Below, one piece after another: positions 36,001-64,000 of a DNA stretch of 64,000 nt. A program made the translations under genes and the position numbers. This DNA is from Tubulanus polymorphus (lineage: Eukaryota; Nemertea; Palaeonemertea; Tubulaniformes; Tubulanidae): contig NC_134029.1 in NCBI RefSeq assembly GCF_964204645.1, forward strand, positions 3,853,001-3,917,000, in the 5' to 3' direction. How positions within the stretch are numbered: position 1 is the first letter of the stretch; each line of letters begins with the position of its first letter. The notes under the pieces were generated by a model. That model was not told the origin of the DNA. It searched no databases and was given only the letters and a program-made list of their open reading frames with translations.

Positions 36001-39000
36001 CGGTACCGTATCGTGGATGCTCGGTCACCTATACCTGTCCACGTCAGCCATAGTTGAAACAAGATCAAGTGGTTAGTACTTCGAAAACCCTCTCTCACAT
36101 AGATATATCCATTTCGTAATTGTATATGGTGGTGACGTGAAAACGTATTGTTTAAATATCAGTTTCGTCAAATATTTTTAACCGGACAATTATTCGCTAC
36201 ATTTTGAATGTCTATTTCAGTCCCAGCTAGTTTGAGTTATCTGCCTGAAACGAGTATCCTGCGAGCATTGGTAGATTTTGTCTTATCAGCCGGTCGATTA
36301 GGTATGTGACGAATTTTGTATATAAGTCGTTTAATGGAAAACACCGAGCCACGTAATATCCCATCACGACGTTAATCCATTGATCTGCCCATACAATATA
36401 GATGTATCGGTTCTACTGTTTTTTTTTGCTTTTCATCCAACGAAACGCAACTTATTGCAATTAAACGCATCGTATCGCTACTTAGCGATTGAGTTAATGC
36501 ACATATAAAGCACTATTTTTCCAGTTGCTTCCAATTGCTTCTGCTCAGCACTGGTGATATACGTCACGCCTTGAAATGCACCGTATCCTTTACTAAGTTG
36601 ACAACTTCGTAGGTTCGACTGCACGAAAATTGATGGATTTCAATATCAGTCTGTCACTGCATTAAAGAAACAGTGAATTATCTCATTTCGTGCAGGTCCC
36701 GAAAGAATTGCGGAAGATGTTTTATTGGGTGTTTTTGAAGCGTTACATGCTGCAAGTAAAGTTGGCCCAATACCTCCCGTCAATTGGCCCGGACTTCTAT
36801 CGGCAATTATGAGAATGCCATTCGGTAAGCGCTATAGTACAACTATTCATCCGCGGTTCTATCGATAAACCGTGTTTTGTTTCTCTATGAGTTCTGATTA
36901 TTTTCCAGGCGACGAAGTGAAATATTTCGCGCTGAAGCTCGTTTTGACGCAATGCGCAGCCGCACCTACAGCCGCCATGTTTATGGCGTCATGGATGACG
37001 TCACCGTTATTCGAGACGCTCAGTGTAATTATTGGTCTGTTCGTCGGACGAACAAAAATAATCTTCGTATTAATGTCAGAAACGGATCTGTTTCTATATA
37101 AGACATGAATTACGTGATAAGATGCTATGAATAGGGATTATTAGGCAAATTAGAGAACGTGATTTACGAATAGAAAATATAGGCGTATCTATGTCTCGCC
37201 GATATGAAAGTATTATATGTCATTAACTCTTTTTTATAGAAAAAGTGTCAGTTGGTTGTTTACGAATCGATGGCGGTATTGGTTAATTCGACGACAATCG
37301 GTAAATTGAAACCGTTTCTGCAACAGACGTGCGCGAAACCTTTCAACGACCGGCACATCCATGGCGGATTAGAAGTGATACGCGGACTCAGAGATGCGCT
37401 TCGAATTGCAAATCCTGCACAGTCGGTGATCCCGCTACTGTATGATCTATTGTCTTTCATCTACGAGGCATTACCTGGCGGTCGAACTAGCACGGTAACT
37501 TATATAAGACATGGTATTACACTCCGGGGACCGCAGTTACTCGCGCCTTTACGACCGACGTAGCTTTTAAAGCATCCCCCGATTGATGATGAAAATAAAT
37601 TGACCGAATTTCATCTAATGCACCGAAGAACGAAATGTTTGATTTATTGTTTTTTAGCCACGCGCTAAAACACAGCTAAATCCATCCGTATTAATGATGA
37701 TACTTTCGAGTATATGTTTAGGAAATGTATTTTTATAGCAGATTTGTCGTAGTTCTATGAAGTCGGATAATGTTTCAATGATCCCTGGAGGTCCAACTAT
37801 ATTTCGACTTAGACGCAATAAAGTCTAATATAAGGTTTCATTGCGATTACATTTTTAAAATCAATTTTCCGGAAATGAATTCATATAAAAGCGGCGCAAA
37901 ATGACATTTTTATGTATGATTGCTGATGTTTATTTTGTGACCTTTTTGACGGCTTTGATCCATTTGATATATACTTGTTACTTAATGTATTTCAAAAGAT
38001 CGTAAATGTGAAGATGTTTTTTTCGGAAACCTTACATTTTAAACCTGAATATTCTGGATACGAGGAAAACATGTTTAAACGTTTGAATTCATGCGACAAA
38101 ACACGTCAGAAATTGTGCTTCGAAGTTAAATGGATTCAAGGATTGGTTATGATCTACTGTTTTCTCTTCTATAGCTGTGTGAACTGATCGTTTTGTTTTT
38201 GTCGGCTTTTTAAAGATAGCAAGATAATCGGTGTTGTTATAACGTTGTAAACGTCGTCCATTTCAGCCGTATGCGATGTTAGATGCGTTGTGCGAATGTT
38301 TCGCTGAAGTGCCCGACGACGTTTTTGACGACATAACCGTCGCCGATTTTACGACGGAGGACAGCGAATTACGGGCAGCGTTTGTAAGATGTTGTCTAGT
38401 CGGCAACGGAAAACAACCCATCGCTCTAATTAACAGATTTATAGATCATGCTCTTAGCAATCCGGACTGGTAAATTGCTGTTTTCGCTCTGATCTGCGTA
38501 AAATCCGTATTTAATTCGTAATAACAATATCGCCTTTTTAAGTGAGTTTTAAGCTTCAATTTGTTGCTTGTTATTTTTAGCAATCGCGACGAAATGATTT
38601 GGTTTGTAAGTCAAAGTTTTCAAAGAATGGCTCTCGAGCATAAGGTCGAGTTTACTGGACCGATGCCAAGGCTGCAGTGGTTCTTGGAATACTTGGGCCA
38701 CGTGAAAAACACGCTCAAACGTCATGACGATGAAGCCGTGCTGAGTGCCGAGAAAAAACAAAAGGTGTGAGGAAGTAAATTAGTAGATTATTAGATTTTA
38801 TGATGACGTCATTTTTTCTTCTTCGCAAGAGGAAATTATATAATTTTGCAAGTTTGTCTTGTGAGAGATTGTGCGCAAAATGCTATTTCGTGAACAGTTT
38901 TGTAACGAGTCAACAACCGCTTAGATCCACCGGCTTGAAACTGCTTTGTGGTTTATGATGCGAGGCCTCATTATTGCCCTAACCTTTCCGTTATTACTTG

Positions 39001-40254: not shown

Positions 40255-42291
40255 TTATGGATATACAACACTAGGTAAATTTCGTCGTTTTAACCATTGA
40301 TCGAAAAGCTGTTCGTATGTTACCAGCACTTCCCGCAGTACGAATCGAAACGCCTGCTGTACCGGCGATGTGCACATCTCTAGTATGGGCAACGACTGTG
40401 ATAACAAACATACAAATTCTTTCATATGAGGCATCGATTTCATGTCCTCGTGTGAGAACACGCTCAGCTGCGTCATCAGTCTATTGACTTCATCGTCATT
40501 CGGGAAGCGTTTCTTGCAGAAATTGGACAGTTTCGAAAACCATTCTTGAGCCTGGATTTTCACCACTTTCTCTTGTTGGACATCTTCGTAGTAGATTTTG
40601 TACGCTATGTCCTCTAGCATTTCTCGGTGGCGTTCGTATAGAAGGCCTGTAAAATGTTTAGCGCGTTTATTGTGGAATTCGAACCTGACGTACAAACTCC
40701 CTACATTCTGGTTTGGAAACTGAAAAGGAGTCCGGCCGGAAATCAACACAGATGCTCCTTGTGACTAAATGGGACAAAATCCAAGGTTCGTTATACACTG
40801 TACGTATTGTAATAGATGTGTCATAATATACTTACCTATTTGCCATCCAGTTGAAAAGGCGGCATATTTTCGATAAAAGGTCAACAGCTTCCGCGCCTCG
40901 AGTTTATTGACTTTTTCTGTGACTAGTTTATTTTGTTCATATTTCACCATGAGTAAATTCTGTTTAATATCATCCAAGGCTTCGTCCGGTGAACGGTCAT
41001 CTTCGTTCTGCGATGGTGAAGCGGCGCTTGTTTGCCTGTGCGCACTCAGCGTTTTGATCTGGTACGGCAATGTTTGCCATAACGGCTGAAATTCGGCGGC
41101 CGGATGCTGTTGAAGAGCTCGCCTCTGTTCATACGTCATGAAAGCCATCGCTTGGAAGAGTTTCTTCGCTTTCGCGCCGAACATCGATTGTGCACGTGTT
41201 TTCCGAGGCGGCGCTGTCGAACCGATTGCCATCAAGTCTTCCCAAGTCTCCACGATATTCGTGTTTTCTGGTGTGTCGAATTCGAGTTTTTTCGTCCGAG
41301 ATTTTGATGAACTGCGATTTCTGCGCCTCGATGTCTGGCAGGCCATCGATGATTCGATGATTCTACTCCTGCGACTGTGCCCCCCTCCTTGCTGACCCTG
41401 CAAGGCTAGCGTATCTCGTTCCTTACGTTGAAATCTCAGCGCCATTACAGCTTCTAAGCTTAGGGGTTTCTTTGTGCGTAGATCCTTTAAGCGCATGTTA
41501 TGTAACGAGACTAACAAAATGTGAATCGCTTCTAATTTCTGACGGAAAAATTGTAACTGTCGCTCCCTCTTTTGCGTGCCGGCTAGTGATGAATCCTCCC
41601 AGAGGTTGTCATCTTCTTCGTGCTGACTTCCGACTATATGCCTTTCAGTAACATTAGCTTTTGATAATTGGCGCATAATCGGGCCTTTATGCTTGAGTTT
41701 CTCCACGTCAAGCTGACTCTGTTTCTCGCATTCGTCGACAAATTCCTGATAAGGCCAGCCTCCACGTACGGCCACGACGCGCTGGGAAACTCTATGCACC
41801 TGTTTAAGGATCGGCTGCAGACCGCCTTCGTTAACGCGTGTCGTATGTTTCAATTCGGGTAAAGTTAGATTCCGACCGCTTTCGGTTTTGATGATCTCCT
41901 TTTTCGTGTCTTTATCGCTTTTCTGTATTTTACTGTCGATCTTACCGCGTAATATCAAATTTCCCGTGTCTCCGGCGTTCCAACCTGGTCGTAACGTGTT
42001 CAACGCCAGTTCTTTAGCGTCAGTGACAACGTCTCCAATCGGTTTATAAGATTCTGTTGACTGACTGAAAAATCCACGGGAAAGATTTCTCTGCCTGCGA
42101 TAGACGCTGTCCATCTGTCTATCACCTACATCGTGGGATAGGTATGTCTCCTGATTCCGAGCGCGAACATTCGTTGCTTTGTACGACGGAGCTGGAGGTA
42201 TCCGATGAAAGCGAAGATATTTCACCGTCTCTTGCTCCAGGGTTTGCGGTTCCCCGTTTTTGTGGAATAGCTTTGCTAAATACAACGCCAT
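40255..42291 (-). CDS. Uncharacterised basic coiled-coil-containing protein, two coding exons
   Basis: Exons 42291-40836 and 40757-40255, joined in phase 1 (TGG CAA ATA G|GTAAGT to CACAAG|GA), give 652 residues ending at TAA 40257-40255. The start is the first in-frame ATG (MALYLAKLFHKNGEPQ); the frame is open 44 codons further upstream but without an ATG. I do not recognise the family. The N-terminal half is rich in Lys, Arg and Gln. A region near residues 280-330 (LQFFRQKLEAIHILLVSLHN) looks like amphipathic helix. A Ser/Arg stretch follows (SRRRNRSSSKSRTKK), then a predicted coiled coil near residues 450-485 and a compact, conserved-looking C-terminal domain with many aromatic and Leu residues. 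There is no signal peptide or membrane segment. Codon use and splice sites match its neighbours, so it is a real gene. A cytoplasmic or ciliary role is only a guess. Confidence 0.82.
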
Positions 42292-42591: not shown

Positions 42592-45500
42592 CTATATACT
42601 ACAGAGCCTGGAAGGTCTGCTTTCCATCGATGAACTGTTTTTCCGCAACAGCCAAACTTTCATCGGAGTTTTCTTGCCTTTCATAGAGACCTCGCCTCTG
42701 AATTCGAATTTGAACGATGCGTCGTAGTTGTTGGTCTGTTGCAGAGCGCTGAAAATAGGGATATAGTTCTTAAGTCATATATTTAATCGTCTTGAATACG
42801 AGACAGTCTTTCAAGTAAGTAAGTATTGCCCTCATGAAGTGCATTTATTACCTGTAGGCAAATTCTGAAATGTTGATGGCTCCTTTGTGTCCGGTCGTTT
42901 CTGTGCGACTAGTTAAATTCACCGTGTTTCCGAAAAGACAATAGCGAGGCATACGTTTTCCGATGACACCAGTTACAACCTCTCCCGAATGGATACCAAT
43001 CGTAATCTGAAACAACAAGAATTATGCAAACCTAACGCTTCAGCAGTCTCCACATATACCAACTTCTCTAATACTTTCTCGTAAATCTTATTAGAATGCG
43101 AAGATAATACACTAGTTTAGCACCCATGATATTGCGAACTCTCCCTTTACTAACCGTAATTCGTTGCCCTTCATCGTCTGTTATTGTGTTAGAAATATCC
43201 ATAAGGTCGAGTGATAGACGCGCAATACAACGGGCGTGGTCCTCACAAGGTTCAGGTAAGCCGCTCACAACCATATACTTATCACCAACCGTCTCAACCT
43301 GTTAACAATGATAGCGCAGATACAAATATATTAACCTAAAATTTAATGGATGCAGATTGTGAGAAAGTAATTTAGACGTAATCCAAGAATGTCAATATAC
43401 AGTACCTTATTTACAACACCAACACCAACGAAAACTAAAAACATTTATAAAGTTTCATAATGTTTTTACAGACACTTTGCTACCTTGCATTTATATCCCA
43501 TAGAGAGTACGTTACATGCAAGTCACTTGAATTATTGATACCTTGTAGACGTTTGGATTTTCTTTTGGATTCAGTTTCTCGTCGAATTTCGTGTAAATAT
43601 CGTTCAGCAGACGAACGATTCTCATGGCGCCATTAGGGTCGGAATTCTTCGTGCAGAATTCGCTAAAGCCGACGATACCGCTGAACATGATGGTGACGTT
43701 CTCGAACTTGTTTGGTGCGACCGGTCGTTGATGGCGCAACTCATTGGCGACAGAGGGTGGAAGTATCGAATACATCAAACTTAAGAAGAACATCAAAAAT
43801 TTGTAAATAGAGTATAAGTCTAGTTGATGGACACTATTATTTCACAAAATCTAATCCTTAATCTTTTTAGGCTTATTACAAGTTGGTTTCGGTACGAAAA
43901 GTCGTAAACTTCAATATGGACTTGGTGAATAATGGTTACCATCGAAGTTCCATGTATACACTTACTTGTCGGTTTTCCCCTTTTCATTTTCAAGCTCTTT
44001 ATGAGTTTGTTGTAGCTGATCTGTGAGGATCTCTAATTTTTGTGTCAGTTTGTATTCGGCTTCGAATTGTTCTGATAGCAGGACGAGTTCGCGTGTAGCG
44101 TCGTGTATCGGGATATCGCTGAGATAGAGACCTCGCCTTCTCAGGTCATCCAGAGTGACCACACTCGGAGAACAGAGGAACAGCATACAGTCGCTTTCTG
44201 GAAGGTAGATCATTTGACCTTTCAGTCGCATTTTGGCGTCCTCGGTGCTCGTAGTTACGTCTGGGTCGCTTGAAGTGATGCCATCTTTCGTCCGCAGTAC
44301 GAAAACGGTGTTGATATGCGAGAGGATGGTTTTGAATGTAAGATCCATCACTGGTCTAACCATATCAAACAATTCATTCACTGTGAATCCGTCATTTACT
44401 CGCGGCACGATCCGAGAAATAGCCGTGCCTGCCTGTTGAATAATCATATCCTCGTCAAACATAATGTGAAACGGGAAACATCGGGCGAACGTGGCCGGGC
44501 TTATCTTCGGTTCCTTCGAGAGCGTGTCCTCAAAAGCGTCTAGATCATTTTTCATACCTGAGCCATCGTCACCCTCTTCCAGAATCAAGAACTGAACGTG
44601 GTCACAGTCGTCTCCTTTCTGTTTCAAAATCTCGCATTTCACATTTTTTCCGTGCAACTTTTTCGTTATTGCCTTCACCAGTCCAACAACAATCGGTTCC
44701 AGTCCGGCGCGTTCTGAATAGTAATGTAATATCGTAGCTCCATCTTCTTCGCGTTCCGTGCACCGAAATGACGGCGCCCTCATTCCCGGGTAGATAGTTT
44801 GTAGGTGGTCGTGCAGGGCGTCTAGATTCTGCAAGAAATCCCGAGTGGTCGCGCCGAGTACTTTCAGCACCTTGTCATAGCCGGATTCTTGGCAGAAGTC
44901 GAAGAATTTCACACCGAATAACTCCAATATGTCGTTTGCGGGAATATCTAAATAAAAGGCATGAAAATCAACCCGTAATTTTCCCTATCCACTCCGGTAC
45001 CCCCCCCCCCCCCCCCTCACCCCTGATTGTAAGTTGTCTACATACTGAGAACCTTCGACGCTGCCGACACAAGATCGTACGACAAAGCGTCATCGTAGAC
45101 GAGACGTACTATGAAGTTACCGTCCATCGTTAGACCAGCTTGTTGTCTGTTCATGAAAAAAAAACAGCACCGGAGTTACCGGTACCCTATTAATACATAA
45201 ACTGTTCAAATTGATTCTAGATATGTTATCAACTATTCTATTTGAATTAGCTAGTCATTGTTGCCTTAATGTGTTTATATGAATACGGACACAGTCTTAC
45301 TTTATTTCCTCCCAGGTCTCGACGCCGAACTTGCGAATTACGAGAAGCTCCAAAGCGTGATTCACAAAACCGTACTGAAACGACATCGATTTATAAATTT
45401 GTCGAGGAAACCTTTCTAATAAACAGCTGATAAAAGTCGTAGACTGTAGAAAAAGTCTATCTTACGGACGCAAAGGCTTCAATTTAACCCACCCCACAAC

Positions 45501-45719
45501 GTGCTCTGTCACCTACGAGTAAGTTTTATTCAGTCAACCGCACTTTGAGAATATGAATTAAACAGGTTCTCCGTGCTGCTTAACTTTCGCTGAGAAGAAT
45601 GTACCAAACCATGTTATATACATTATAATAATATAATGGATACTATCAGCATCATTCTCTGAGCGCTTCACGTGAAACACCACTTTCTTCCAACGAGACA
45701 AAAAAAAGAAACTTACCAT
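42592..45719 (-). CDS. GUCY1B1: Soluble guanylate cyclase beta-1 subunit, complete, 8 coding exons
   Basis: Exons 45719-45717, 45374-45301, 45146-45046, 44947-43966, 43788-43542, 43298-43155, 43006-42852 and 42748-42592 give 620 residues, against 619 in human. The product is the haem subunit of the cytosolic NO receptor that makes cGMP from GTP. The H-NOX domain (1-185) has proximal His105 in LDALHDHL and the haem-propionate motif Y135-x-S137-x-R139. Next come the H-NOXA/PAS region, a coiled coil ([20 protein letters not shown]) and the cyclase domain from about 390. Catalytic-domain residues are of the beta type: FSGIVGF (Gly for the metal Asp), E471 in VETVGDK, C540 and N547...R551 in [13 protein letters not shown]. 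The first coding exon is just the ATG, which abuts GTAAGT. The C-terminus ends CSI, not a CaaX box. Confidence 0.97.
45000..45016. repeat. Poly-C run in a beta-1 intron
   Basis: Seventeen consecutive C residues in intron 44948-45045, close to the acceptor of exon 44947-43966 (minus strand poly-G). It is likely length-variable. Confidence 0.8.
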
Positions 45720-46432
45720 GATTTATGACACGAAATTACTCTTATTGGCAAAGAATATTCGGCGTCACTTCCAACGCACTTAATTAAATCCTCCTCTTGT
45801 AGTGATGACAACCTTTACTGTTCAGCATCTTCCGATGAAATGGGTGTTTCCTATCTCCTCTTGTAGGCGTCGCTACTGGTATGTTTGGATTGACGGCTTG
45901 TTTGATTTGTTGATATATCTCCGTGATTTGATAAATCCTGAAATCTGGCTTGCGTGAAATTGCTTATAGTCGGAAACTTTCTTAGGGCTCCAAATTAACT
46001 TTGAGTAGCCGTCGATCTCTACATGCGAAGTGACAAGATTTCTTAGAAATATGAAGAGCTCGTAGACGTTTTAACGTATTTGCCAAGAGGAATGGTTGGA
46101 AATCGTTCGAATTTCACACCTTGGTTGTGTAATGATAATGATGCAAAGACTAGTTTATAGTGTTGGGTATAGCCTTAAGTCTTAACGCGAGTAACAATTA
46201 ATGAGTAACCATTTAGCATTAAGGTTGCAGTAAAAAAAAAGTATTGTACATTGTACAGCTGTTGTTAAGAGATTGGCGGAGGCATATGTACCCGGTACTC
46301 GGATTGCTTGTGTCAGTTTCGGCAGCTTAATGGCAATCGGACAACGGCTAGCTTTTGTGTCTCGCTTGTTATTTTTGGACGTAAAATATCAGCACCAGCT
46401 CTCAAAAGATGCGAGAAAATTCGTACGATCGC
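45720..46432. other. Promoter-side interval between alpha 3' end and beta-1 start
   Basis: About 710 bases separate the likely alpha poly(A) signals from the beta ATG. The stretch must contain the beta 5' untranslated region and core promoter. No TATA box or coding segment can be assigned with confidence. Confidence 0.5.
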
Positions 46433-46449
46433 TTTATTTCATTTTTATT
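46433..46449 (-). terminator. Candidate poly(A) signals of the alpha cyclase gene
   Basis: Two AATAAA hexamers on the minus strand (46449-46444 and 46438-46433), about 545 bases after the alpha stop codon. The AT-rich 3' untranslated region between has no coding character. Confidence 0.5.
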
Positions 46450-46992
46450 ATAAAATACAAATATCATAGAGATTTTTCTCGATAATACAAATAAAAACAG
46501 GGCGCATCATCTTATCCCTATACATCTCTATAACGCCCAAAATCAATCTTCAAATCCACAATGCAGCTTAAGAATTCAAATACGTTTTATCATATTATGA
46601 GATCTTCGAATAATCCTGAAATATCAAAATGAAACGTTCTGAAGACCAGTTATTCAATTATAACAACAAACCCAGTCATACACCAGAGTGCAACCACGAA
46701 ATAATATTCTTTCATTGATAAAAAGTGCTTCTTTGTTTTTCTACGTGAGATAAATATTTATGATTAGACTCGTTATTTATGAGAAACTACAAAAATGTCA
46801 ATATCATATATTAATTATTAATCTAGAAATAAGATGCAATTTTCCCAAAATCAACCTGTTATGATGCGATCGATGTGATACAAATGCCGCGTTCATTCGA
46901 TCATACAACAAAATCGCTATAAATTTCCGACGACGCTGTTATTTTTGTTAGATATTGTTTTTACGCATACTCATATTATTCACGGACATACA

Positions 46993-49900
46993 TCATGAAT
47001 CTTCTAGATTTATCTGCTTTAAACTCTCTAATATATGATCAATATTGTCAGCACCGGCAGCATCGGACTGTTCCTCTCGAGCGTATCGGTTTAAAAAATA
47101 CGGAACGCCCGCCACGTCATCCGGGAATCCGACCGGCAAATCGTCACGTGACCGCATTGTAAAATCGAAACCGCTGCTGTTAGCAAGGAGCAAACTGAAA
47201 AGAAATTTAGAAATCGTTAGCAGCTAGTATCCGAGTACAAATAATTATCGCAGATATTAGGTCTATACGTGGCGAAAATGCATAATTTCTAAGGCGTCAG
47301 AATAGTAACTACTGTGTCTTCTGTAAATACTCAATTAACCCAGTTGACCACGATATCGAAGCCTATATACGCCAAACACTACAGAGACAATGAAACTAGT
47401 CCGATGAAATTCAATAAACCGATTTTAATTACATTCAAGGATTAAGCAAGCCGCCAACTGAAACTCGCCAACAGATCAGCCGAATAATCGAATTTATAAC
47501 TGACGCGATGACATCATCGTTCAGATCACAGACGAACTGATTGCGGATTCTCTTCACTTGAATATCCGCAATCATAACTAGGAATACGCGGTATATGTAT
47601 CTAGTATATACATTAACTATGATGGTTCTTCTTGTCCGTGACTAATTAACTGATCTCGAGTCTGTGTGATATACACGCCTCAAGTACCGCTAGAGTATTA
47701 CTAGATATATGATCCGCCACTTTAAAAACTAATGGCCTCTCATCATAAAAACCACAAGCGACACTGCGCAGGCGCCAAATAGAAAAAGCAGACACTTCCA
47801 AAGACTCATTATTGCACATCAAAAGTCAGTCATATTTACTGTCAGCGTAGCTTTACGAGATTGGATGAATCTGACTTAAGGCATTCGGACTTCGGAGGGG
47901 CAAATGAAAGAAATATACAAATAAGAAAAACAGATGAAACGCGCCATGCAAGTGACAACTGCGAGTGAAATGTGTTCTTGACATATGCTTTTCACTGTAA
48001 TGAGTTTAATTTTTATACACGTACCTATGTGTAGTCGGGCTGATGTTTATTCGACCGGATACACTTCCGGATTCGAACTTGTTCGCCAACGTCACGTGAT
48101 TTCCGAAAAGGCAATAACGAGGCATTTTAGTACCGACCACTCCGGCTAGTACGGGGCCCGAATGCAGGCCTATTCTCATCTGAAATATTGTAAAAAACAA
48201 ACATTAGTCAAATTAATTCCTATATCAAACAAACCAGAACAATCTATACGAACACTCCAATACTCGATCAATGTAGAGAATGATGATCGAAATCGTTTAA
48301 TGACCATTATTTGTCTAACAAGAGGAAGTAACAGATAGCAACCGCGACGAATCACTAATAGCTCACATAAAATACTAATAACAACAGCATTTTTATTGCG
48401 AGGTCACAGGTTCATATGTTGCTTTGTGTTATATCGTTATACCTTTATTATAGTGCCATCGTGACAAGTTGATGAATTTGCCGCAGACATCATTTTTAAT
48501 GCCATCCAAGCGGCTCTTACAGCGTGGTACCTGCTCGGGCGATGTAGACCACCGGCGCAGCAATAAGCATCTCCTATTGTTTCTATCTATATATAAACCA
48601 TTAACGTATAATCAATTAGACTTTCAAATCGAAACCACCATAACGAAAGCGGTTCGGCATAAAAATGAGTATTTAAATAAGTCACCGAAGGTAATTCAAC
48701 ATTCGATCTTACATCAGAGATCATCAACGCCAGTTTCATATTCGTCATGTTGAATTTTATTTCTATTCGTCGTATCAGACTACTAATTAAATGTAAGAAT
48801 AAGCGGCGAGGACCGCACTCGCTTTACCTTATAAATATCGAGTAACTCGCAGAAATTGTCGAACTTCGTGTAGAGGTTCTGCAACATGTCTATGACTTGT
48901 AAAGGCGTGGCCACGGAACAAATTGCCGTGAACCCGACAATGTCGCTAAACAACATCGTTACATCTTCAATAATCATGGGTTTTACGGTTTGGCCTACAA
49001 TTCACAATAAACACATTCATTAACGCAACGTGTGAAGTCATAGTAAAGATTATTATCCCGAACAGACAATGATCGGTTTCAGTTTCCCGTATCAGAACCG
49101 TAAATCGTGACAAAATGTTCAACGAAGGATCTCCACCCTGTTCCATACGAATCCAATGCAATCATCACCGTACTGACATTCTTAAATTTGTTTCTCCCTA
49201 TTCTTGATATTTGATACAGTAATTCTTGGCGTGTTAGACAGACAGTAAGACAAGCCGTGATGTTGTTCTATACAGTGTCTGTGTATCGTGTATCCTTTCG
49301 ATTCTCTATACTTTTATACTATTTTTGAAGCGCGAAACTGAAGGAAAACATGCTTCGAAACCAAAATTATTGATAGCTAAATGTCATTGTTTACCTAACC
49401 AAAGACGTCTAGCGACATCTGCCGGGAAGATCAACTGAAGAAGTTCGACGTTTTTTTGTTTTTCCGCTTCGACTAATATGTTTGCCTCTTCGATACTCTG
49501 TTTGAGATGAACCATCCGTTTCTTTAAACCCTCCTAAATAATTACATGTACGCTCTATAAAACAGGCTCACGTTGCAGCATAAGATTATATGTATAAAAG
49601 TCAGAAAAGAAAATAGAAAATTTGTATTCAAAAGGACGGGCGGCTCTAGCACAAATTCACGATTAAACGACTCGGTAGAGGTAAGTTTTATGAATTTCGA
49701 TACCGAAACTGAAGGGTTAATATCATAAAACTACGGTTGTTGATAGCTGAGCCTAATAAACCTAATCACTTAATGTGGCTGGAAATAGAAAGCGAGATGT
49801 GCAGGAAGTTCACGTCCCGCGGTGATTGAGACACGCGGACTTAATTGAATAGCTCGAGCTCTGATAGGAAATTTATTAAAAGACCCCTAGAAGTGTTCTT

Positions 49901-52900
49901 TCAAAAGTATCCGGTTTATTGCACTTTTCAAATTCAGGATTAGAACGAGCGCATAATATTAAACTTCATCGACGGTAACCACATCGAATGAGACAAAATG
50001 CGCAGTTAATTGAGCCAATACCCGAATAACGGATTAAATTTTATAGAGTGGAATCATATTGACATGTAAATGTAAACGTCTGAACCCCGGTTGGTAATAG
50101 GCTTTTATACTCGTAACCACTACTGCATCATCAAACATGAATTTGCGCTTCGCTGATGCAATTCTTGACTCTGCAATGAATTGATGACTGTGTAAATATA
50201 ACACTGATGCTGAAACTACCACAACGTGTATCACCTTGTTTTCCTTTTACTTTTTAATGCGCCAGGAGCATGCCCAAGTTACAATCGAAACAAACTCGGT
50301 GACATTATATGCGTGTACGGAAAGATCTTCACCCATATCCAAATGTCCACCATACAAAAAAGTGCCGCATTTTATCACTCATTATCATTGACCTAGAATA
50401 TGATTATGGTAAAATAAACCTACCTGTGCTTTGGTGTGCTCGCCGACAAGGATGACGTCACGGGTTGCGTCATGTATAGGGATATCTGATATGTAAATTC
50501 CTTTACCAATCAGTTCGTCCATTTTCACGACGGATGGAGACCCTAGGAATAAAACTGACTCCGATTCCGCCACATACACCATTTGACCCTTCAATTCTAA
50601 TGTAAACTGAAAAGAAATATCTGTATTTATTGAGGCAAAAATGGCGGAAATACTTGAGATCTGGTTTTGAAATGATTATCATTTCTGGTGGTTACCTTGC
50701 TATCTCTCGTTTGGCTCTTCAACTTTAAAACAAAAGTCGAATTTATTCGCTGTAAAATCGACGTTATTTTCATTTTCACATTCGGTCGTACGATGTCGAA
50801 ATACTCGTCTAGAGCCAGACCGCGAGTATTGATCTCTGGGGCGATGCTCTTCATCAGAGCCGTACCCAATTGAGTAATCTGCAATTCTTTATCGAACATC
50901 AAATGAAAAGGGAACGACCGACAAAAACTGACGACGCCGATTTTAGAGTCCACGGCGTCCGTCGACAGACGCTTTGTGATGGATAGATTACGACTGGTGA
51001 CCGATCGACTGAGAATGTTTATCAGAAGTTCGTACAAATTATCGTCGTTTCGGTCGTTCTCTTGCAGTTTGACGTTGACCTTCGCCTGAAACATATCTCT
51101 GGCAGCCGATTCCAGAATACCCGCTAACAAATATTGCGATTTATTTCGCTTCGAGTAGAAATACAACAAGAGTTCTCCGTTTTCACGAGTGCTACAGCGA
51201 AATGACGGCATTCTGACACCGGTAAAACTTGGATTCTCCTTCAGGTGATCGTCCAGTCCGTCTAGATTACACAGGAAGTCATAAAGCGTACTTCCCAGAC
51301 ACTTTAACTCTCGTTCATACCGTTCGAAGCACATACCGAAGATGATGCATCCAAGGTCTTTGTAAAGCTTTTGATGGGGTAAACCTATAAAAATCATTAA
51401 CGTTGAATGTGCAAATAACTCACATTCCAAAGGTAAAATGAAAAGAGGATTTCTGAATGAGTAAAAGCAACAAATACAAAAAGAGAATCATCGCGAAAAT
51501 TTGCTCAATTTATGGAAACTCAAGCATCGATGTAAGATTTTGCAGAATATATTCATTCCTCACTTTGTATCTTATGTATCAATACTCACCCACAAGACTG
51601 CCCACTTTGTCAACTATTTGACTGAGTTCCAATTCGTCATACGGACTGTACTCTGAGCATGATTCATTTTCGATGTAAACATAATCATCGCCCTTTACGT
51701 CCTTCCTGAAAACGAACGCCACGGTGTTTTATGGCGTATTCTCGCTTCTCATTAGGGGGGTATTCTTAACACGACACCGGAAGAACAATGAATCTATACT
51801 TACATGATCTTGTCCCACGCGACGGAACCATAACCATTCAATAGTCTTCTGATTGCGGCATTCATTAATTGTGTCTGAATCGTTAGATAGTGATGATTTA
51901 AGAATTAGAAAGCAGAACATTTCGATAATAGATGAATAAGGATTTTGATGCAACAATTCTCGAACTTTCCACTTTAACAACAGTCGGGTTTTGGTGTTTC
52001 ATTCGTTCGATTATCAATGCTAGTCCATCTCTCTTTAATAAGTTCAGACACGGAGCTTGCTCATTAATATTACATAATCAATTTATCAATCTTACTGTTG
52101 TTAGTGGTAATTGTAATAAGACAGAGACCTCAAATACACGTCCCTTAAGTATGAATTCGCCTGTATACGGATTTGGAAAACGCATTTTAATTTCCGTTTC
52201 TTGCCTCGACGAGGCTCAATCAACACGAGTGGCCGCCCCAATTAATTTCAGCGGGGTGAAAATGAAGAACGCTTTCGGGGCTTGGTAAGCTACAATTTAG
52301 ATTACCAAGTAAAGTTAAATGCCTTGAGAGATTGAATTATTGAAATCTAATTTTAGCAACAACCTATTGCACTGACTATTGGGATTATATTCGTCTTACC
52401 AAAGACGCTAATTTTCTGAGTCCGTTTTTTGTGAAATGTTTCTCCTAGTTGTTGCCGAGGGAATGTGTCGCCGTTCTGACGATAATTTTACGGGGTTCGA
52501 GCACAACATCATCATACGCAACAACTGACGAACCCAACAAGCCGTTAATATTGTGGCTTTGGTCTATGCTTTCATATCGTTAATCAATACAAACTAAGAC
52601 ACTTAAAGTGGAAACTGATTGATCTATTCTAGAATATTTCAGCATCTTTCTCAGTCCCAATGTTTCCCAGATTATTTATACTGGTGACTGTCAGCTGACA
52701 CAGTGGCTAATTGCTGACCAAGTATTTGCCCTTAAACGGAAAGCGCGCTGAAAGGTGTTATCCAATCAATACGAATGGATATTTCAGATTTCAAATCTAT
52801 CAACAGCGTTTATCAAATATTGACACTATTACTATCCGTAATCAACTGTGAAACTGTTTATTCACGTGACAGCTCCTAAAGTTCGATGAATGAATGAATG

Positions 52901-55900
52901 AACCAAAAATATATTTTGGAAAGATTATTTTGAACAGCGATATAAATATTAACTTAAAGCAGTCACACGAAATCCTCGTTAGGTTAGAGTTTTAGAATCT
53001 ATTTGACTGTTCAGCGAAAAACCACCTTCAAAAACACATAACGAGGTATAATACATGAGGATGTGTTGAAGGAATGAATCACAACATCTATGAAATGATC
53101 GTATAATCGCGGCACGTATTTCTTGAAACCGAAGATCTTACTCCGCTAACTGCCGAGTTTTCATACTGACACAGAATTCGTTATGATAATATTTTTTATG
53201 TTGCACGGAAGAAAGAGAGGAGGTTTGCACTGTACATGAGTTCCGCAGCGAGAACGATGATGGTGAGTTTGGAAGCATTTCGCACGAGATAAACGATCGA
53301 AAAAGCGGACAACGTAATGTCGCGTACGGTAACATTGCTGACTATGGGAGATCATCATGAACAAAATAATGACGTTCGTTTTGAACGTGTTGATGTGTTT
53401 ATCCCAAGCCGCTGCCCTTGGTTTAGCAATAGATAACAAGGGAACTTTGATGTGTTAGAAGAGATTAAATAACCGTTATAAAAAAGACACCGGGAAAGGA
53501 GAAATTTCTTATACGATAGATAGATAGATGCTAATCATTATTGATTCCGTTTCACGTTCATCTTCCAATATTCTTTTACGCATGAACCACATTTCGAGGT
53601 AACAACACTCGCTTCCCCAAGATTACTGGAGCTGATACTCACTAACACAAATCTCTGAAACAAATGATCTGAATACGTCAAATCATCTGCCTGGACACGT
53701 TAAGTTAATCAACACGTCGGTGCAATAGTGTTGATTGTGTTAGAACGCTGCGGATGAACTCCTATTCTGAACTTTGATATTCGAAGCGAACGTTTTGATG
53801 CAGAGTTTAGAATCATTCATTGATCGACTGTCTAAGATACCTGTAGCTTACCTATTGTAGATATGACGACATTTCGATATCAATATTCTCTTTACACAAA
53901 CCAGATTCCTCCTGACACCGGGGTAACTTACGTTTGCCGTTTTTATGCGTATTGCATGGGTTGAACAAAATGATCAAAATCTATTATAATAGAATTAGTT
54001 TTTTAACCACTCTCCTTCTAAAGGCGATCGAAGGACTCCTGCATTCAAATCATTACACCACAGAGCTTTTGCGCGGCCTGTGTTTTTTGAAGTGGATGTT
54101 GATGCATTGGTCAGTACGCATAATCACTCAGATGCGGTGACTGGTCACCAAATTGTCTATTCATTAGCAATTACCCTTTCGTTCTCTCATTCAAACAGTT
54201 TATCATCATCTATCAAAAATGGTATTTGGGGGTCTGGGGGTGGGTCAGAACGGACGAAACCCCTCCGTGGTTATATGAGCCTGCAATCCATCCTTCACTT
54301 GGCCATATTTTCAAGAAATGAGGTGGATAATGATCTAGTTGCGAATCGATAGTCACGATATTCATCTCCAACCGTGGAAAACTGGACTTCAGAGACCTGG
54401 TCGAATCCTCGGTATGCACAGACTTATAGTATTTAGTATGAATTATAGTGACACAAACCTACACGCCTTAACTCGTCATATCGATCATTTATTGAATAGT
54501 TAACTCAGTGCCTTCAGGGCCAGTCATACCCAGACCAAGAAAGGCAGCATTCTGCAATATTAATTCCATTCCTGATTTGACAAATCTAGCTTCCAATTTC
54601 CTAGTGTCTGATTAGTTAGATATTTGAGACGATTGTCACTACAAATCTGATATCTCATTCAAAATTATGTTTCTGCGCGCTTCACGTCTGTGTATGTATG
54701 GCTTTCTTAATGGTGATCAATGATCGCGGATCAAAATGTGTTATCGATTGGTCATGAAACACATATATACAATTCGTATAGTAAACTATAACAAATATCT
54801 GCTTTAAAATGAATAAAACGTGCATAAAAGTTGTAGAAATGTATCTTCACGGTATTTAAGACAGGAATTGATATGAGTATTGAAAAGGCTCCCACCAGCC
54901 GTACGTTAGATGATGATAATATTGCAATTCTAGATTACGGTTTCTGTGTTTTATCCCTACGTTTTGTGTCTTTGTGCGCAATTTATTAACAACCCATGGT
55001 TTATAAAGACCATTCACGAAATATATCAAAATGACAGTTGTGAGATAAATTGGAGATAGTTGTGAACTCGTCCGGATTAGCGACTGTTACTAGGCGCACC
55101 TAGTGAGTTCTGAGAACGTGCAGTAACTAATGCTCGTAATAGCATTAAGGTACGTATATTGTAAGTTATAATACGCTCCCAGGTGGAATCGTTTCGACTT
55201 CGAATATTAACCGTATTAATCGCAAATGATGCACGATACACGGTGTAAGATCATTGTAATACGCTTAATGAAAATGCTGGACTGCTCCGTATATTTTCCC
55301 CAGATATATATAGTTGGCACGCGGCCACGCGCTTACTTATACATAACGCGACACGCGGTTTAGTTTGGTTTGGTTTGGTTTGGTTTGGTTTGGTTTGGTT
55401 TGGTTTGGTTTGGTTTGGTTTGGTTTGGTTTGGTTTGGTTTGGTTTGGTTTGGTTTGGTTTGGTTTGGTTTGGTTTGGTTTGGTTTGGTTTGGTTTGGTT
55501 TGGTTTGGTTTGGTTTGGTTTGGTTTGGTTTGGTTTGGTTTGGTTTGGTTTGGTTTGGTTTGGTTTGGTTTGGTTTGGTGTGGTTTGGTCAGAACACGAA
55601 GTGTAGATGGTTTTCAGCAACCACTAAAAAAAAAAATCGCAAAAATCTTTGTCAGTTTATGGTATTGACGATTAATCGTCCGCACCTGTTTTTCAATGAT
55701 TCATATTACTGTAAAACTTCGGATTCCATATTAGCTATATCGAGGTTTTTCATTTCCAATCGAACACACTGCGCGGGGTCTTTCAGTGTACCGATAAGTG
55801 CGGCCAACTTTCATATAATTCTCCTCATTCTTTCGAGCTATTCTCGGGTGCAATGACGTAGATCGACGAAATTCGTTCGCCGTAAATAAACTTTCTCGTC

Positions 55901-58015
55901 GATCCGCGAAGATTTTTCAATGGAAATTCCCAACGAGGTTCGCATAGTGGCATCCGCAATTCAGCGGGCAGCCACGTCACGAAATAACTCGCGCTGGAAC
56001 TCCCTGTGTTTATATTCAGTTGTTGACTTAACGATTGAAGAAGTTAACGGAGGTCTACCTAGGTTCATTTCTCTATATTCATCGTCAATATTTTGCGCGC
56101 GAATCGGTAATTTTCATGAAGATGATGAATCCCCGTGAGAATCGATACCAATTATCAATATTGAATAGAACGATTTACTCTATATTTGCCTACATCAGAT
56201 TTCTCGATTAAAGACGTATTTCATATGAATATTCTTTCGAAAGTTTGAAGTTTTCTGATTAACGACAATTCTTAATGGTCTGGATCTTTTTCTCAAGGCC
56301 TCTGGGGAAAGTAGAAATCTTAAAGGTAAATCTTTCTTTCCCTACACCCCGGCTCCTAGCATATACTATATCAAATTTCCGTCAATCTAAAAAGGTCAAT
56401 TTGACATATGAATATCTAAATGAAGGCGCTATTGTTTATGTTGTTGATGTAATCTCAGAAAATGCAGAAGCCTTTCGGCTTTCGACAACTTGAAATTGTA
56501 CGCGCTTTGAACGCTTCCCTGAAGTCCATCTTAAAATTGCGACACCATACACGATCCGATTTGCTTTGCTCTGCTCACCGAGAGAGGTTGCGTAACATAT
56601 TATTAGGTTTCTAAATAGGCGCAAATTTGCTGCTTCTGAAATTACAGTTATCGAATGGAAATCTGTCGGTCATATTGCCAATGTAATTCAATCAATGTCA
56701 CTACCTGAAAGTTAATCAATTTTCAACAAGCCGTTTATGTAACTCGGGACGATTCTTGTTTGCTCCAATTCGCGTCTGCTTTCAGAGACACCCGATTCGT
56801 CGTGAACTACATTACGCTGAATTTGCTCTTCAATATGTCACAAATTACTGTCTTTCGATTACCAAACCACCGAATTATTTGTTTATATTTCCTCTCTATC
56901 GTCGCCGTTCGTCCATCGACAGATGTTAGTTTTCCGAATGTTCTCATAAAATCCTACCGATTCTTAATCAATATGTCTGTAGATATACACGCACATAAAA
57001 ACGTTGTTGAACAAAAAGTAATCCGATCATCGCATCAAAAGTAATGCCTGACCTAAGATTATGTTACCGCGGAAAGAGGATCTTTCTTTCGAGTTTTTTG
57101 ATGTAAAATCCCTTGCAGTATCTCACGCGTTTGATGTCATGTTTCTTTGAGCTTTCAGACCCCTGGATGCATTTGCTTTTTGTATCGATACTTAAATATC
57201 AGTTTCGTGTTTCGAGGGTGCATCGATTTTTCAGCTGCCTGAGCCGAATATGCATCACCTTTTTCAAAGCGGATTTAATGTTACCCTGAGGTAGCAATAA
57301 AAGTCTTTTGCGCAAAATTGAAAAGTCAGAACAAGCTTTACCCGATTTATAAAGGTCGCGGAACAAGAATCGAGTTTGATTTTGGATTATTCAGGAATCT
57401 GAAACAACTGTTTTCAGGAGAATGTTTGGGCCATTAGGACAATTTTATGCGGAGCACATGTTACTTCATCGATAGTCGTTTTCTTTTAGGCAAAAATGAA
57501 GCTTCCCATATGTCAAGTTCTCTGTTCAATCTGAATCTAAACCCGCCTTGATCGTTCTAAGCAATTTACACATGATACGACTAGAGTGATATGTGTACGT
57601 ATATCATATTCATCAGGAAGCGTTCTCGATGAATAGAGAATGATGACTCTAGTTTAATCCACGGAGGGTGATTGTGATAAGTGTAAAATGAGTATATTAC
57701 AATACCGAGTCAGTGTTAACAGTGTGTGTATAGCGAATTTATATGAATATCCGCTGAGGCAGATGAGAAGGCAAACATCCAAGAAAAAGAAAGAAAATAG
57801 TATTTCATACTTACCGATGGTACAATAAGTGTGCCTACCGCCTCAACAAGTCCTCTTAAATCCAGTTTCCTTTCACCGAGCTGATCGTCAGAGCTGCAAG
57901 CTGAACCAGTTGATGTCGAGCTGATTTTACGTAATATTTCCACCTGTTCCGATGGCTTTGTTATTGTTCCCATTCGCCTCAGTTCTGCGCCACTACAGCT
58001 GAACGGACAGCTCAT
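46993..58015 (-). CDS. GUCY1A1: Soluble guanylate cyclase alpha subunit, complete, 10 coding exons
   Basis: Exons 58015-57815, 51874-51804, 51705-51590, 51384-50696, 50606-50424, 49533-49395, 48994-48828, 48586-48443, 48179-48025 and 47194-46993 give 688 residues, against about 690 in human alpha-1; all phases agree. The N-terminal exon ([14 protein letters not shown]) precedes an H-NOX-like domain in which the haem His position is Asp174 (LDGLDDHL), as expected because alpha subunits do not bind haem. H-NOXA, coiled-coil and cyclase domains follow. The cyclase domain carries the two metal Asp residues, D484 in FSDIVGFTA and D528 in IGDAYC, and the alpha-type [14 protein letters not shown]. 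It dimerises with the beta-1 product of the adjacent gene, 1.27 kb downstream on the same strand. Whether it is orthologous to both vertebrate alphas needs a tree. Confidence 0.95.
51875..57814 (-). other. First intron of the alpha cyclase gene (5.9 kb)
   Basis: Donor TCG|GTAAGTATG at 57814 and acceptor GATTCAG at 51875, phase 0. It contains the TTTGG pentamer array at 55364-55589. The scattered short open frames on both strands lack splice signals and coding composition, and no nested gene was recognised. Confidence 0.8.
55364..55589 (+). repeat. TTTGG pentanucleotide microsatellite, about 45 copies
   Basis: Near-perfect tandem TTTGG with one TGTGG variant near the 3' end. The unit contains no stop in any frame on the plus strand (repeating VWFGL) or on the minus strand (repeating PNQTK), so the long open frames across it are artefacts. 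It lies in the alpha cyclase first intron. Confidence 0.98.
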
Positions 58016-62308: not shown

Positions 62309-63070
62309 TTATTCCTTGTGTGTCTTTAAATCAAGTATATAGTCATGCCCAAAAACTGGAATGAATTGTCTTGGCACCTTAATTCTGGGGCCGGAATCCT
62401 GAAAACCACACTTTCTATAAAGACGGTGTGCTGCTACGCGTCCATTCCGAGCTGACCCATATAACTGTTCATAGCCTTTTTCTTTGCAATATGCAATAAC
62501 GTGTTCCAGTAATATTTTACCAAGTCCTTTCCTTTGAAATTCAGGATGGATGCAGTTCATGTTGAAGGTGGGTATAGGTTTGCATAGGAGCTCTTCAGAG
62601 CCGAAACTGGAAGGAATATCATCGCGAATAGAAACATGAACGCACCCTACCAGTTTACCAGAATCTTTCAGTTCCATCATGAAAATAACATCTTCGCTCG
62701 GACTCGAAGTGCGAATTTTGTCAGCGATCTTTGGAACTCTTTCAGCGACGCTCGTGGTGTAATCATACGCGTACGCCAGCCAATAGGCGTAGAATATCAG
62801 CGGAAATAAAACCACAGGAATTAAACCAACAAGAAATGAACGGCTGTATACCCAGACAATACAAACGCTAATTAATAGAACAACCTGCGCAATTGGTTCT
62901 TTCATTTTTTGGGCCACTTCTGCGTGGACTAAATTCCAATTAGCTTTCGTCACAATCGATGTAACACCTTTGATATCCGTCTTAGAATTTGGATCCAGAT
63001 GTCGAATCTTAATATCACCCATACCTGCCCGTTGAGCGGTCCTAGTGCCGAGAAGGTTGCGCCACATCAT
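62309..63070 (-). CDS. NAT8-like N-acetyltransferase (GNAT family), copy 1, complete
   Basis: Single-exon frame of 253 residues from ATG 63070 (MMWRNLL); ATG at codon 17 (MGDIKIRHLD) is closer to the usual NAT8 start and may be the real one. The enzyme transfers acetyl from acetyl-CoA to an amino group and is expected at the ER or Golgi membrane. Two hydrophobic stretches near residues 60-105 (VVLLISVCIVWVYS and LIPVVLFPLIFYAYWLAYAY) match the membrane hairpin of NAT8/camello proteins. The GNAT fold follows, with the acetyl-CoA motif HPEFQRKGLGK and the C-terminal RVAAHRLYRKCGF. The stop codon TAA is embedded in AATAAA (62313-62308), so the 3' untranslated region may be very short. It is a tandem paralogue of the next gene. 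The substrate (cysteine conjugate, lysine or other amine) cannot be told. Confidence 0.92.
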   Translation of the reverse strand: MMWRNLLGTRTAQRAGMGDIKIRHLDPNSKTDIKGVTSIVTKANWNLVHAEVAQKMKEPIAQVVLLISVCIVWVYSRSFLVGLIPVVLFPLIFYAYWLAYAYDYTTSVAERVPKIADKIRTSSPSEDVIFMMELKDSGKLVGCVHVSIRDDIPSSFGSEELLCKPIPTFNMNCIHPEFQRKGLGKILLEHVIAYCKEKGYEQLYGSARNGRVAAHRLYRKCGFQDSGPRIKVPRQFIPVFGHDYILDLKTHKE

Positions 63071-63461
63071 GTCAACACTTCATAGTGTAAAGAACAATAT
63101 GTATTCCAGCAAATGAACCGAGTGCTTCTAGTTTTGATATGCTACGATACCATGTATATGTAGTATGTTTTTTCGCTATACACCACAATCAATATCATAT
63201 AGGTCATCGGTGATTATTCACTGGGACACGTTTGCCCGGTATATAGAAAGCGCATTTTCACTTTCGAAAATCGAAATCGGAAGCGTAATATACAAACATT
63301 TACTATGCATGTGAGTATTTTCTATTCAAAACAGTGGATTTAAAAATCTTTGAAAAAAGCTGTTAAGAACGTTCTTCTCATGGCATAGAAAAATCCGCTT
63401 TAAAGATATGATATCAAACATAACTGCATCACGTGAAATATAGTATGTTGTGGTGAAATGT
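63071..63461. other. Spacer between tandem NAT8-like genes
   Basis: About 390 AT-rich bases holding the promoter of copy 2's downstream neighbour (copy 1) and the 3' end of copy 2. No coding segment is seen. Confidence 0.6.
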
Positions 63462-64000
63462 TTACTCCTTGTGTGTCTTTAAATCAAGTATGAAGTTATG
63501 TACGATAGCTGGAATATTTTTTCGTGGTATCTTAATTTTAGGGCCACAATCCTGAAAACCACACTTTCTATAAAGACGATGTGCTGCTACGCGTCCATTC
63601 CGAGATGTCCCATATAACTGTTCATAGCCTTTTTCTTTGCAATATTCAATAACGTGTTCCAGTAATATTTTACCAAGTCCTTTCCTTTGAAATTCAGGAT
63701 GGATGCAGTTCATATCGAAGGTGGGTATAGGTTTGCATAGGAGCTCTTGAGAACCATAAATGGATGGTGGAATATCATCGCGAATATAAACATGAACGCA
63801 TCCTATCAGTTTACCAGAATCTTTCAGTTCCATCATAAAAATAACATCTTCACTCGGACTCGAAGAGCGAATTTTTTCGGCGATCTGAGGAACTTTATCG
63901 ATGACATTCGTGGTGTAATTAAACGCGTACGCCAGCCAATAGGCGTAGAATATCAGCGGAAATAGAACCACAGGAATTAAACCAACTAAAAATGAACGGC
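63462..64000 (-). CDS. NAT8-like N-acetyltransferase, copy 2, cut by window edge
   Basis: The frame stays open to the window end; its visible part corresponds to the region of copy 1 from RSFLVGLIPVVLFPLIF onward and ends LDLKTHKE. Motifs are intact: HPEFQRKGLGK for acetyl-CoA and RVAAHRLYRKCGF. By eye it is highly similar to copy 1. Differences cluster after the membrane hairpin (NYTTNVIDKV against DYTTSVAERV) and near the C-terminus (KNIPAIVHNF against QFIPVFGHDY), regions that may affect substrate choice. The N-terminus lies to the right of the window. Confidence 0.9.
   Translation of the reverse strand, partial: RSFLVGLIPVVLFPLIFYAYWLAYAFNYTTNVIDKVPQIAEKIRSSSPSEDVIFMMELKDSGKLIGCVHVYIRDDIPPSIYGSQELLCKPIPTFDMNCIHPEFQRKGLGKILLEHVIEYCKEKGYEQLYGTSRNGRVAAHRLYRKCGFQDCGPKIKIPRKNIPAIVHNFILDLKTHKE

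Follow-up and report, generated by a model that had tools for sequence, protein, structure and literature searches.

A 64,000-nucleotide (nt) stretch of the Tubulanus polymorphus genome (contig NC_134029.1, positions 3,853,001 to 3,917,000 of assembly GCF_964204645.1; hereafter the window) contains the genes for both subunits of soluble guanylate cyclase (sGC), the receptor for nitric oxide (NO). The sGC alpha gene is complete on the minus strand, with 10 exons (58015-46993, joined from sequence reading) encoding 688 amino acids (aa), its ATG at 58015-58013 and its TGA at 46995-46993. The sGC beta-1 gene is likewise complete on the minus strand, with 8 exons (45719-42592) encoding 617 aa, its ATG at 45719-45717 and its TAG at 42594-42592. 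The two are immediate neighbours arranged head-to-tail, alpha upstream of beta-1, and the spacer from the alpha stop to the beta ATG measures 1273 bp. An initial annotation of this DNA had described a complete and adjacent pair on one strand, alpha first, with 1.27 kb between stop and start; its coordinates proved exact, and the distance agrees with ours. The features of the pair, in the order of transcription, are as follows.

57815..58015, minus strand: alpha exon 1 (ATG at 58015; residues 1-67), donor gtaagtat, N-terminus MSCPF compared with MTCPF of the 6pas_A alpha chain
51804..51874, minus strand: alpha exon 2, GT-AG on both sides, frame kept
51590..51705, minus strand: alpha exon 3, from the gene model
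50696..51384, minus strand: alpha exon 4, remainder of the H-NOX domain and start of HNOBA, with Asp at the heme-ligand position (model, Pfam and alignment)
50424..50606, minus strand: alpha exon 5, from the gene model
49395..49533, minus strand: alpha exon 6, coiled-coil region, from the gene model
48828..48994, minus strand: alpha exon 7, cyclase domain with FSDIV (model and residue alignment)
48443..48586, minus strand: alpha exon 8, 144 nt, with IGDAY; length and intron phases equal those of beta exon 6
48025..48179, minus strand: alpha exon 9, 155 nt; length and intron phases equal those of beta exon 7
46993..47194, minus strand: alpha exon 10 with the TGA stop, from the gene model
45720..46992, minus strand: spacer of 1273 bp, with two AATAAA signals (first letters at 46449 and 46438) and without TATAWAW
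45717..45719, minus strand: beta-1 coding exon 1, ATG only, then gtaagt
45301..45374, minus strand: beta-1 exon 2 (gene model and PDB chain match)
45046..45146, minus strand: beta-1 exon 3, from the gene model
43966..44947, minus strand: beta-1 exon 4, with His105, YYSER and HNOBA, and TFARC compared with human TFCKA (model, Pfam and alignment)
43542..43779, minus strand: beta-1 exon 5, from the gene model
43155..43298, minus strand: beta-1 exon 6, 144 nt, from the gene model
42852..43006, minus strand: beta-1 exon 7, 155 nt, from the gene model
42592..42748, minus strand: beta-1 exon 8 with the TAG stop, from the gene model

Exon ends were picked by sequence reading guided by homologues, so that the models combine sequence and homology. 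All 16 modelled introns (9 in alpha and 7 in beta) have GT-AG ends. The first coding exon of beta consists of the ATG codon alone and is followed directly by gtaagt, and the 71-nt alpha exon at 51804-51874 preserves the frame from exon 1 to exon 3. Exons 8 and 9 of alpha are equal in length to exons 6 and 7 of beta (144 and 155 nt, respectively). A misread pseudogene was ruled out as an artefact, both reading frames being intact over the 18 exons. Alpha intron 1 extends over 5940 bp; a pentanucleotide array lies within it (55357-55589, 46.6 copies, 98% match).

In both proteins the Pfam domains HNOB, HNOBA and Guanylate_cyc each scored above the curated cut-off, and in beta-1 they follow one another at residues 2-165, 207-401 and 409-600. 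Compared with chains of solved structures in PDB, the alpha protein reached 513.6 bits with the 6pas_A alpha and 480.7 bits with the 6jt0_A alpha (both named alpha-1), against 332.6 bits with the best beta chain. The beta protein reached 859.7 bits with 6jt0_B and 835.5 bits with 6pas_B (both beta-1), against 299.7 bits with the best alpha chain. Chance similarity is excluded by the best E-values, 6.9e-153 for alpha and 8.9e-258 for beta. We take 6pas to derive from Manduca sexta and 6jt0 from human. In a six-row alignment of alpha and beta-1 from the window, human and 6pas, the identity of the window alpha was 44.7% with the human fragment and 43.0% with the 6pas chain, whose M-[ST]-C-P-F N-terminus it also shares. 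For the window beta, identity was 61.2% with 6jt0_B and 62.3% with 6pas_B, and the two window proteins were 34.0% identical to each other. The full-length tree of these six rows split the alpha trio from the beta trio with a support of 100/100; within the trios, the window alpha grouped with the 6pas alpha (85/85) and the window beta with the 6pas beta (73/72), groupings that hint weakly at a protostome origin. The possibility that the alpha gene is a second beta was ruled out by the bit scores and the tree. The subunit identities proposed in the initial annotation are upheld by the PDB-chain scores and the 100/100 split, in which the window alpha joins the two other alphas, as it should if it is orthologous to them.

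Residues of functional interest were located by alignment, in human beta-1 or human alpha numbering. In the window beta the heme pocket is intact apart from position 214 (Ala), with His105, Pro118, Cys122, Tyr135, Ser137, Arg139, Ile145 and Cys78 all retained. Its HDH and YYSER stretches align with human 105 and 135-139, so the ligand histidine and the Y-x-S-x-R motif are present. Distal position 145 is Ile, not Tyr, and the absence of Tyr there is tied to the exclusion of O2. Where beta has His105, the window alpha carries Asp, encoded by a codon one base from that of beta; its H-NOX domain retains Pro118, Ser137 and Arg139, with Phe in place of Tyr135. The cyclase domain of alpha carries Asp at human alpha 486 (FSDIV) and 530 as well as Arg574, with the FSD and GDAYC signatures, and that of beta has Gly at the alpha 486 position. 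Asn548 and Arg552 are found in beta, and Thr and Lys occupy these positions in alpha. The functional roles of these residues, including the metal-binding Asp pair, are known from the sGC literature. Given the complementary cyclase halves and the heme-pocket residues, we predict a single two-chain catalytic site and NO sensing by beta. The beta-1 H-NOX domain would bind heme via His105 and sense NO, and the alpha H-NOX domain, having no ligand histidine, would serve as its partner; from the Asp at the ligand position, alpha is predicted not to be a heme sensor. The two cyclase domains would then form one active site, to which alpha would supply the metal-binding Asp residues and beta the Asn/Arg pair. 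Judging from these residues, the two chains presumably form a heterodimer and sense NO in this animal.

In the viral and prokaryote collections searched, relatives came only from cyanobacteria and were H-NOX proteins: an alignment search of genome contigs recovered 8 loci in 92 stretches, all of them titled as cyanobacterial. The same type of search in viral contigs gave 181 stretches and 0 relatives, and single-sequence searches gave 2 stretches in viral contigs and 8 in genome contigs, with 0 relatives in either. The eight cyanobacterial loci (L001-L008) encode stand-alone H-NOX proteins that are 40-44% identical to the beta query over the best segments. Unlike the window genes, they have no fused cyclase, their open reading frames (ORFs) stopping after 183-195 aa. 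All eight entered an H-NOX-only tree, in which the end branches measured 7.51 for the 6pas alpha, 6.63 for the human alpha and 2.16 for the window alpha. The short branch indicates that the window alpha has the least diverged H-NOX domain of the three compared. This agrees with its higher Pfam HNOB score, 81.7 bits, which sets it apart from the insect 6pas alpha (37.2 bits); the human alpha fragment, which is without the first part of the domain, gave no Pfam HNOB match.

The two genes have most of their intron positions in common. In the six-row alignment, which misplaces beta intron 1 through an end effect, 5 of the 7 beta introns match alpha introns in column and phase. Global pairwise alignments under three settings brought 6, 5 and 6 of the seven into coincidence, and local pairwise alignments under three settings, which end before the N-terminus, 4 each. 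The intron after residue 386 is the sole beta intron that was never matched, and the alpha introns after residues 359, 420 and 466 are without a beta counterpart. When introns were placed at random, 20,000 draws yielded no coincidence 19,362 times, one 631 times and two 7 times, two being the maximum. Shared positions and phases, together with the equal exon lengths, point to common descent from one intron-bearing gene through duplication at the DNA level. They further suggest that alpha and beta-1 are an old tandem duplicate that remained together. A published tree has an alpha clade with vertebrate, insect and mollusc sequences and places beta-1 as sister to it (0.92), not to vertebrate beta-2 (PMC1435932). 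This relation is consistent with the two being direct duplicates of each other.

In human, GUCY1A1 and GUCY1B1 (4q32) lie on the same strand with alpha upstream, and Mikami et al. are said to have reported alpha1 and beta1 in tandem in medaka in 1999. Two reviews likewise describe the vertebrate alpha1 and beta1 genes as closely located (PMC10342570, PMC11432225). The likeness to the vertebrate gene order claimed in the initial annotation is borne out to that extent. Alpha and beta separated before the animals compared here did, which excludes a fresh duplication as the source of the pair and means that its adjacency was either retained or regained. That a chance rearrangement newly joined the two genes in this lineage seems to us exceedingly improbable, and nothing positive speaks for it. 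With 20,000 genes assumed, we estimate the probability of becoming immediate neighbours at about 2/20,000 and that of also matching order and orientation at about one quarter of this, approximately 1 in 40,000. Such low odds of regaining the arrangement make common ancestry much the better reading, and the linkage of the pair is likely ancient. The annotation's suggestion of an ancient pair therefore stands as an inference, retention being far likelier than independent re-adjacency. Among the open-licence papers listed in literature searches, none had a title on sGC alpha-beta gene order in an invertebrate, and the word 'tandem' is absent from the main text of PMC1435932 and PMC7400543.

We are accordingly confident, though short of certain, that alpha and beta-1 are transcribed as separate units and encode a canonical NO-activated sGC, and that they are old tandem duplicates adjacent since before the protostome/deuterostome split. 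In the history that we propose, tandem duplication of one intron-bearing sGC gene would have yielded alpha and beta-1, and both daughters would have stayed head-to-tail, most likely since before that split. On the broader statement that the heterodimeric NO receptor arose by tandem duplication of an intron-rich sGC gene, with the daughters head-to-tail in several lineages since, we are evenly divided. The window carries both marks of such an origin, in that the genes are neighbours and have most of their introns in common, and its alpha H-NOX domain is the least diverged of the three. The arrangement in this animal matches the vertebrate-type tandem locus in adjacency, common strand and upstream alpha, and the shared introns add to the case made in the initial annotation.

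Several observations weigh against this account. The gene-order evidence presented here comes from one genome, and the control by random placement treats introns as uniformly distributed. In the H-NOX-only tree the three alphas were not grouped: the window alpha joined the 6pas_A alpha with a support of 77/47, and the human alpha stood apart with low support at the forks. Furthermore, the window beta has Ala at position 214, with a Cys two residues further on (TFARC compared with TFCKA), where the other five sGC sequences aligned, those of the insect included, have Cys. Cys78 and Cys214 of beta are cysteines connected with the NO response in earlier work. We do not treat Ala214 as defining, because all other features, like the tree, assign the gene to beta-1. 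One paper speaks of 'two critical cysteine residues' (PMC1435932). The same source names the Drosophila genes Gyc alpha-99B and Gyc beta-100B, which puts the pair in separate bands and indicates that adjacency was lost or never present there. It also describes C. elegans as being without alpha (PMC1435932), and the arrangement is thus not universal.

The spacer and upstream regions bear on whether the pair is transcribed or regulated jointly. AATAAA occurs 543 and 554 nt past the alpha stop, leaving over 700 nt to the beta ATG; the 1273-bp spacer holds no TATAWAW. The 1273-nt upstream regions of the two genes have 28 nine-mers in common against 24.3 expected, a count reached in 143 of 500 shuffles. 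For ten-mers the figures are 7 shared and 6.5 expected, and for eleven-mers 0 and 1.8; such counts are blind to distal enhancers. A bacterial-type promoter scan of the spacer gave 6 matches against 6.2 expected and is uninformative for an animal. Neither the two AATAAA signals nor the k-mer counts, which show no excess, speak for joint transcription or a shared promoter. On the strength of the two spacer signals, a dicistronic unit was set aside as improbable.

The adjacency might be held by selection, through common regulatory elements or chromatin, or through read-through, that gives equal amounts of the two subunits. Alpha and beta are obligate partners, and one review holds that close location accounts for transcriptional coordination in medaka (PMC10342570). 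Against this, another review describes the coordination of the two genes as still incompletely understood (PMC11432225), the upstream regions share no excess of words, and the spacer holds the AATAAA pair. In addition, only 300 bp separate the beta stop from the next recognised ORF, also on the minus strand, where the five recognised predicted genes in 40.3-64 kb all lie. Tight same-strand spacing being common here, that of the pair is not special, and its orientation weighs little. We regard selection as a doubtful explanation, and nothing in these data supports the co-regulation suggested in the initial annotation.

We lean instead towards inertia, in which rearrangement has simply not broken up an ancestral tandem duplicate, either in vertebrates or in this lineage. 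The intron positions common to alpha and beta, the separate poly(A) signals and the lack of word sharing upstream all agree with it, as does the Drosophila pair, which is not adjacent by the band names (PMC1435932). A single adjacency surviving in distant lineages would nevertheless be improbable under free rearrangement.

An ancestral adjacency, if that is what it is, would make alpha and beta-1 a natural test case for asking why certain two-gene machines remain together: animals in which the pair is broken could be compared with those in which it is intact, with respect to co-expression and the balance of the subunits. Through their shared introns the two genes link the rise of the heterodimer to a duplication at the DNA level, the date of which is testable from the structures of cnidarian, placozoan and sponge genes.

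The vertebrate locus resembles the window in the close location of alpha and beta-1; it differs in the spacer, which is about 20 kb in human compared with 1273 bp here, and in its flanks. The human pair is presumably flanked by MAP9, NPY2R, ASIC5, TDO2 and CTSO, and none of these was recognised among the scanned ORFs, which cover part of the window only. In the window the flanks comprise a gene resembling focadhesin, another that is weakly typed, and GNAT genes, as seen in a Pfam scan of 20 ORF references outside the sGC genes, a subset beside which further genes are possible. The weakly typed gene is a two-exon ORF joined by hand (40258-42291, minus strand), which begins 300 bp past the beta stop. 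It had no Pfam match above the cut-off: one exon by itself reached 15.5 bits with DUF4698 (cut-off 28.6), a match that the joined protein did not give. Upstream of alpha are two similar GNAT acetyltransferase ORFs (62312-63998, minus strand) with a hydrophobic N-terminal stretch, the second of which extends beyond the window edge; they are likely tandem copies. Between the focadhesin-like matches, and on the opposite strand, a single-exon rhodopsin-type seven-transmembrane ORF (15740-16828, minus strand) is perhaps nested in an intron of the focadhesin-like gene. The other features in the window are as follows.

3361-3684, plus strand: focadhesin-like gene, Pfam DUF3730 at 47.6 bits (above cut-off)
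37240-37560 and 38243-38470, plus strand: weaker focadhesin-like Pfam matches, below cut-off
5189-5261, plus strand: tRNA gene, tRNA-Glu(TTC)
23153-23226, plus strand: tRNA gene, tRNA-Ile(AAT)

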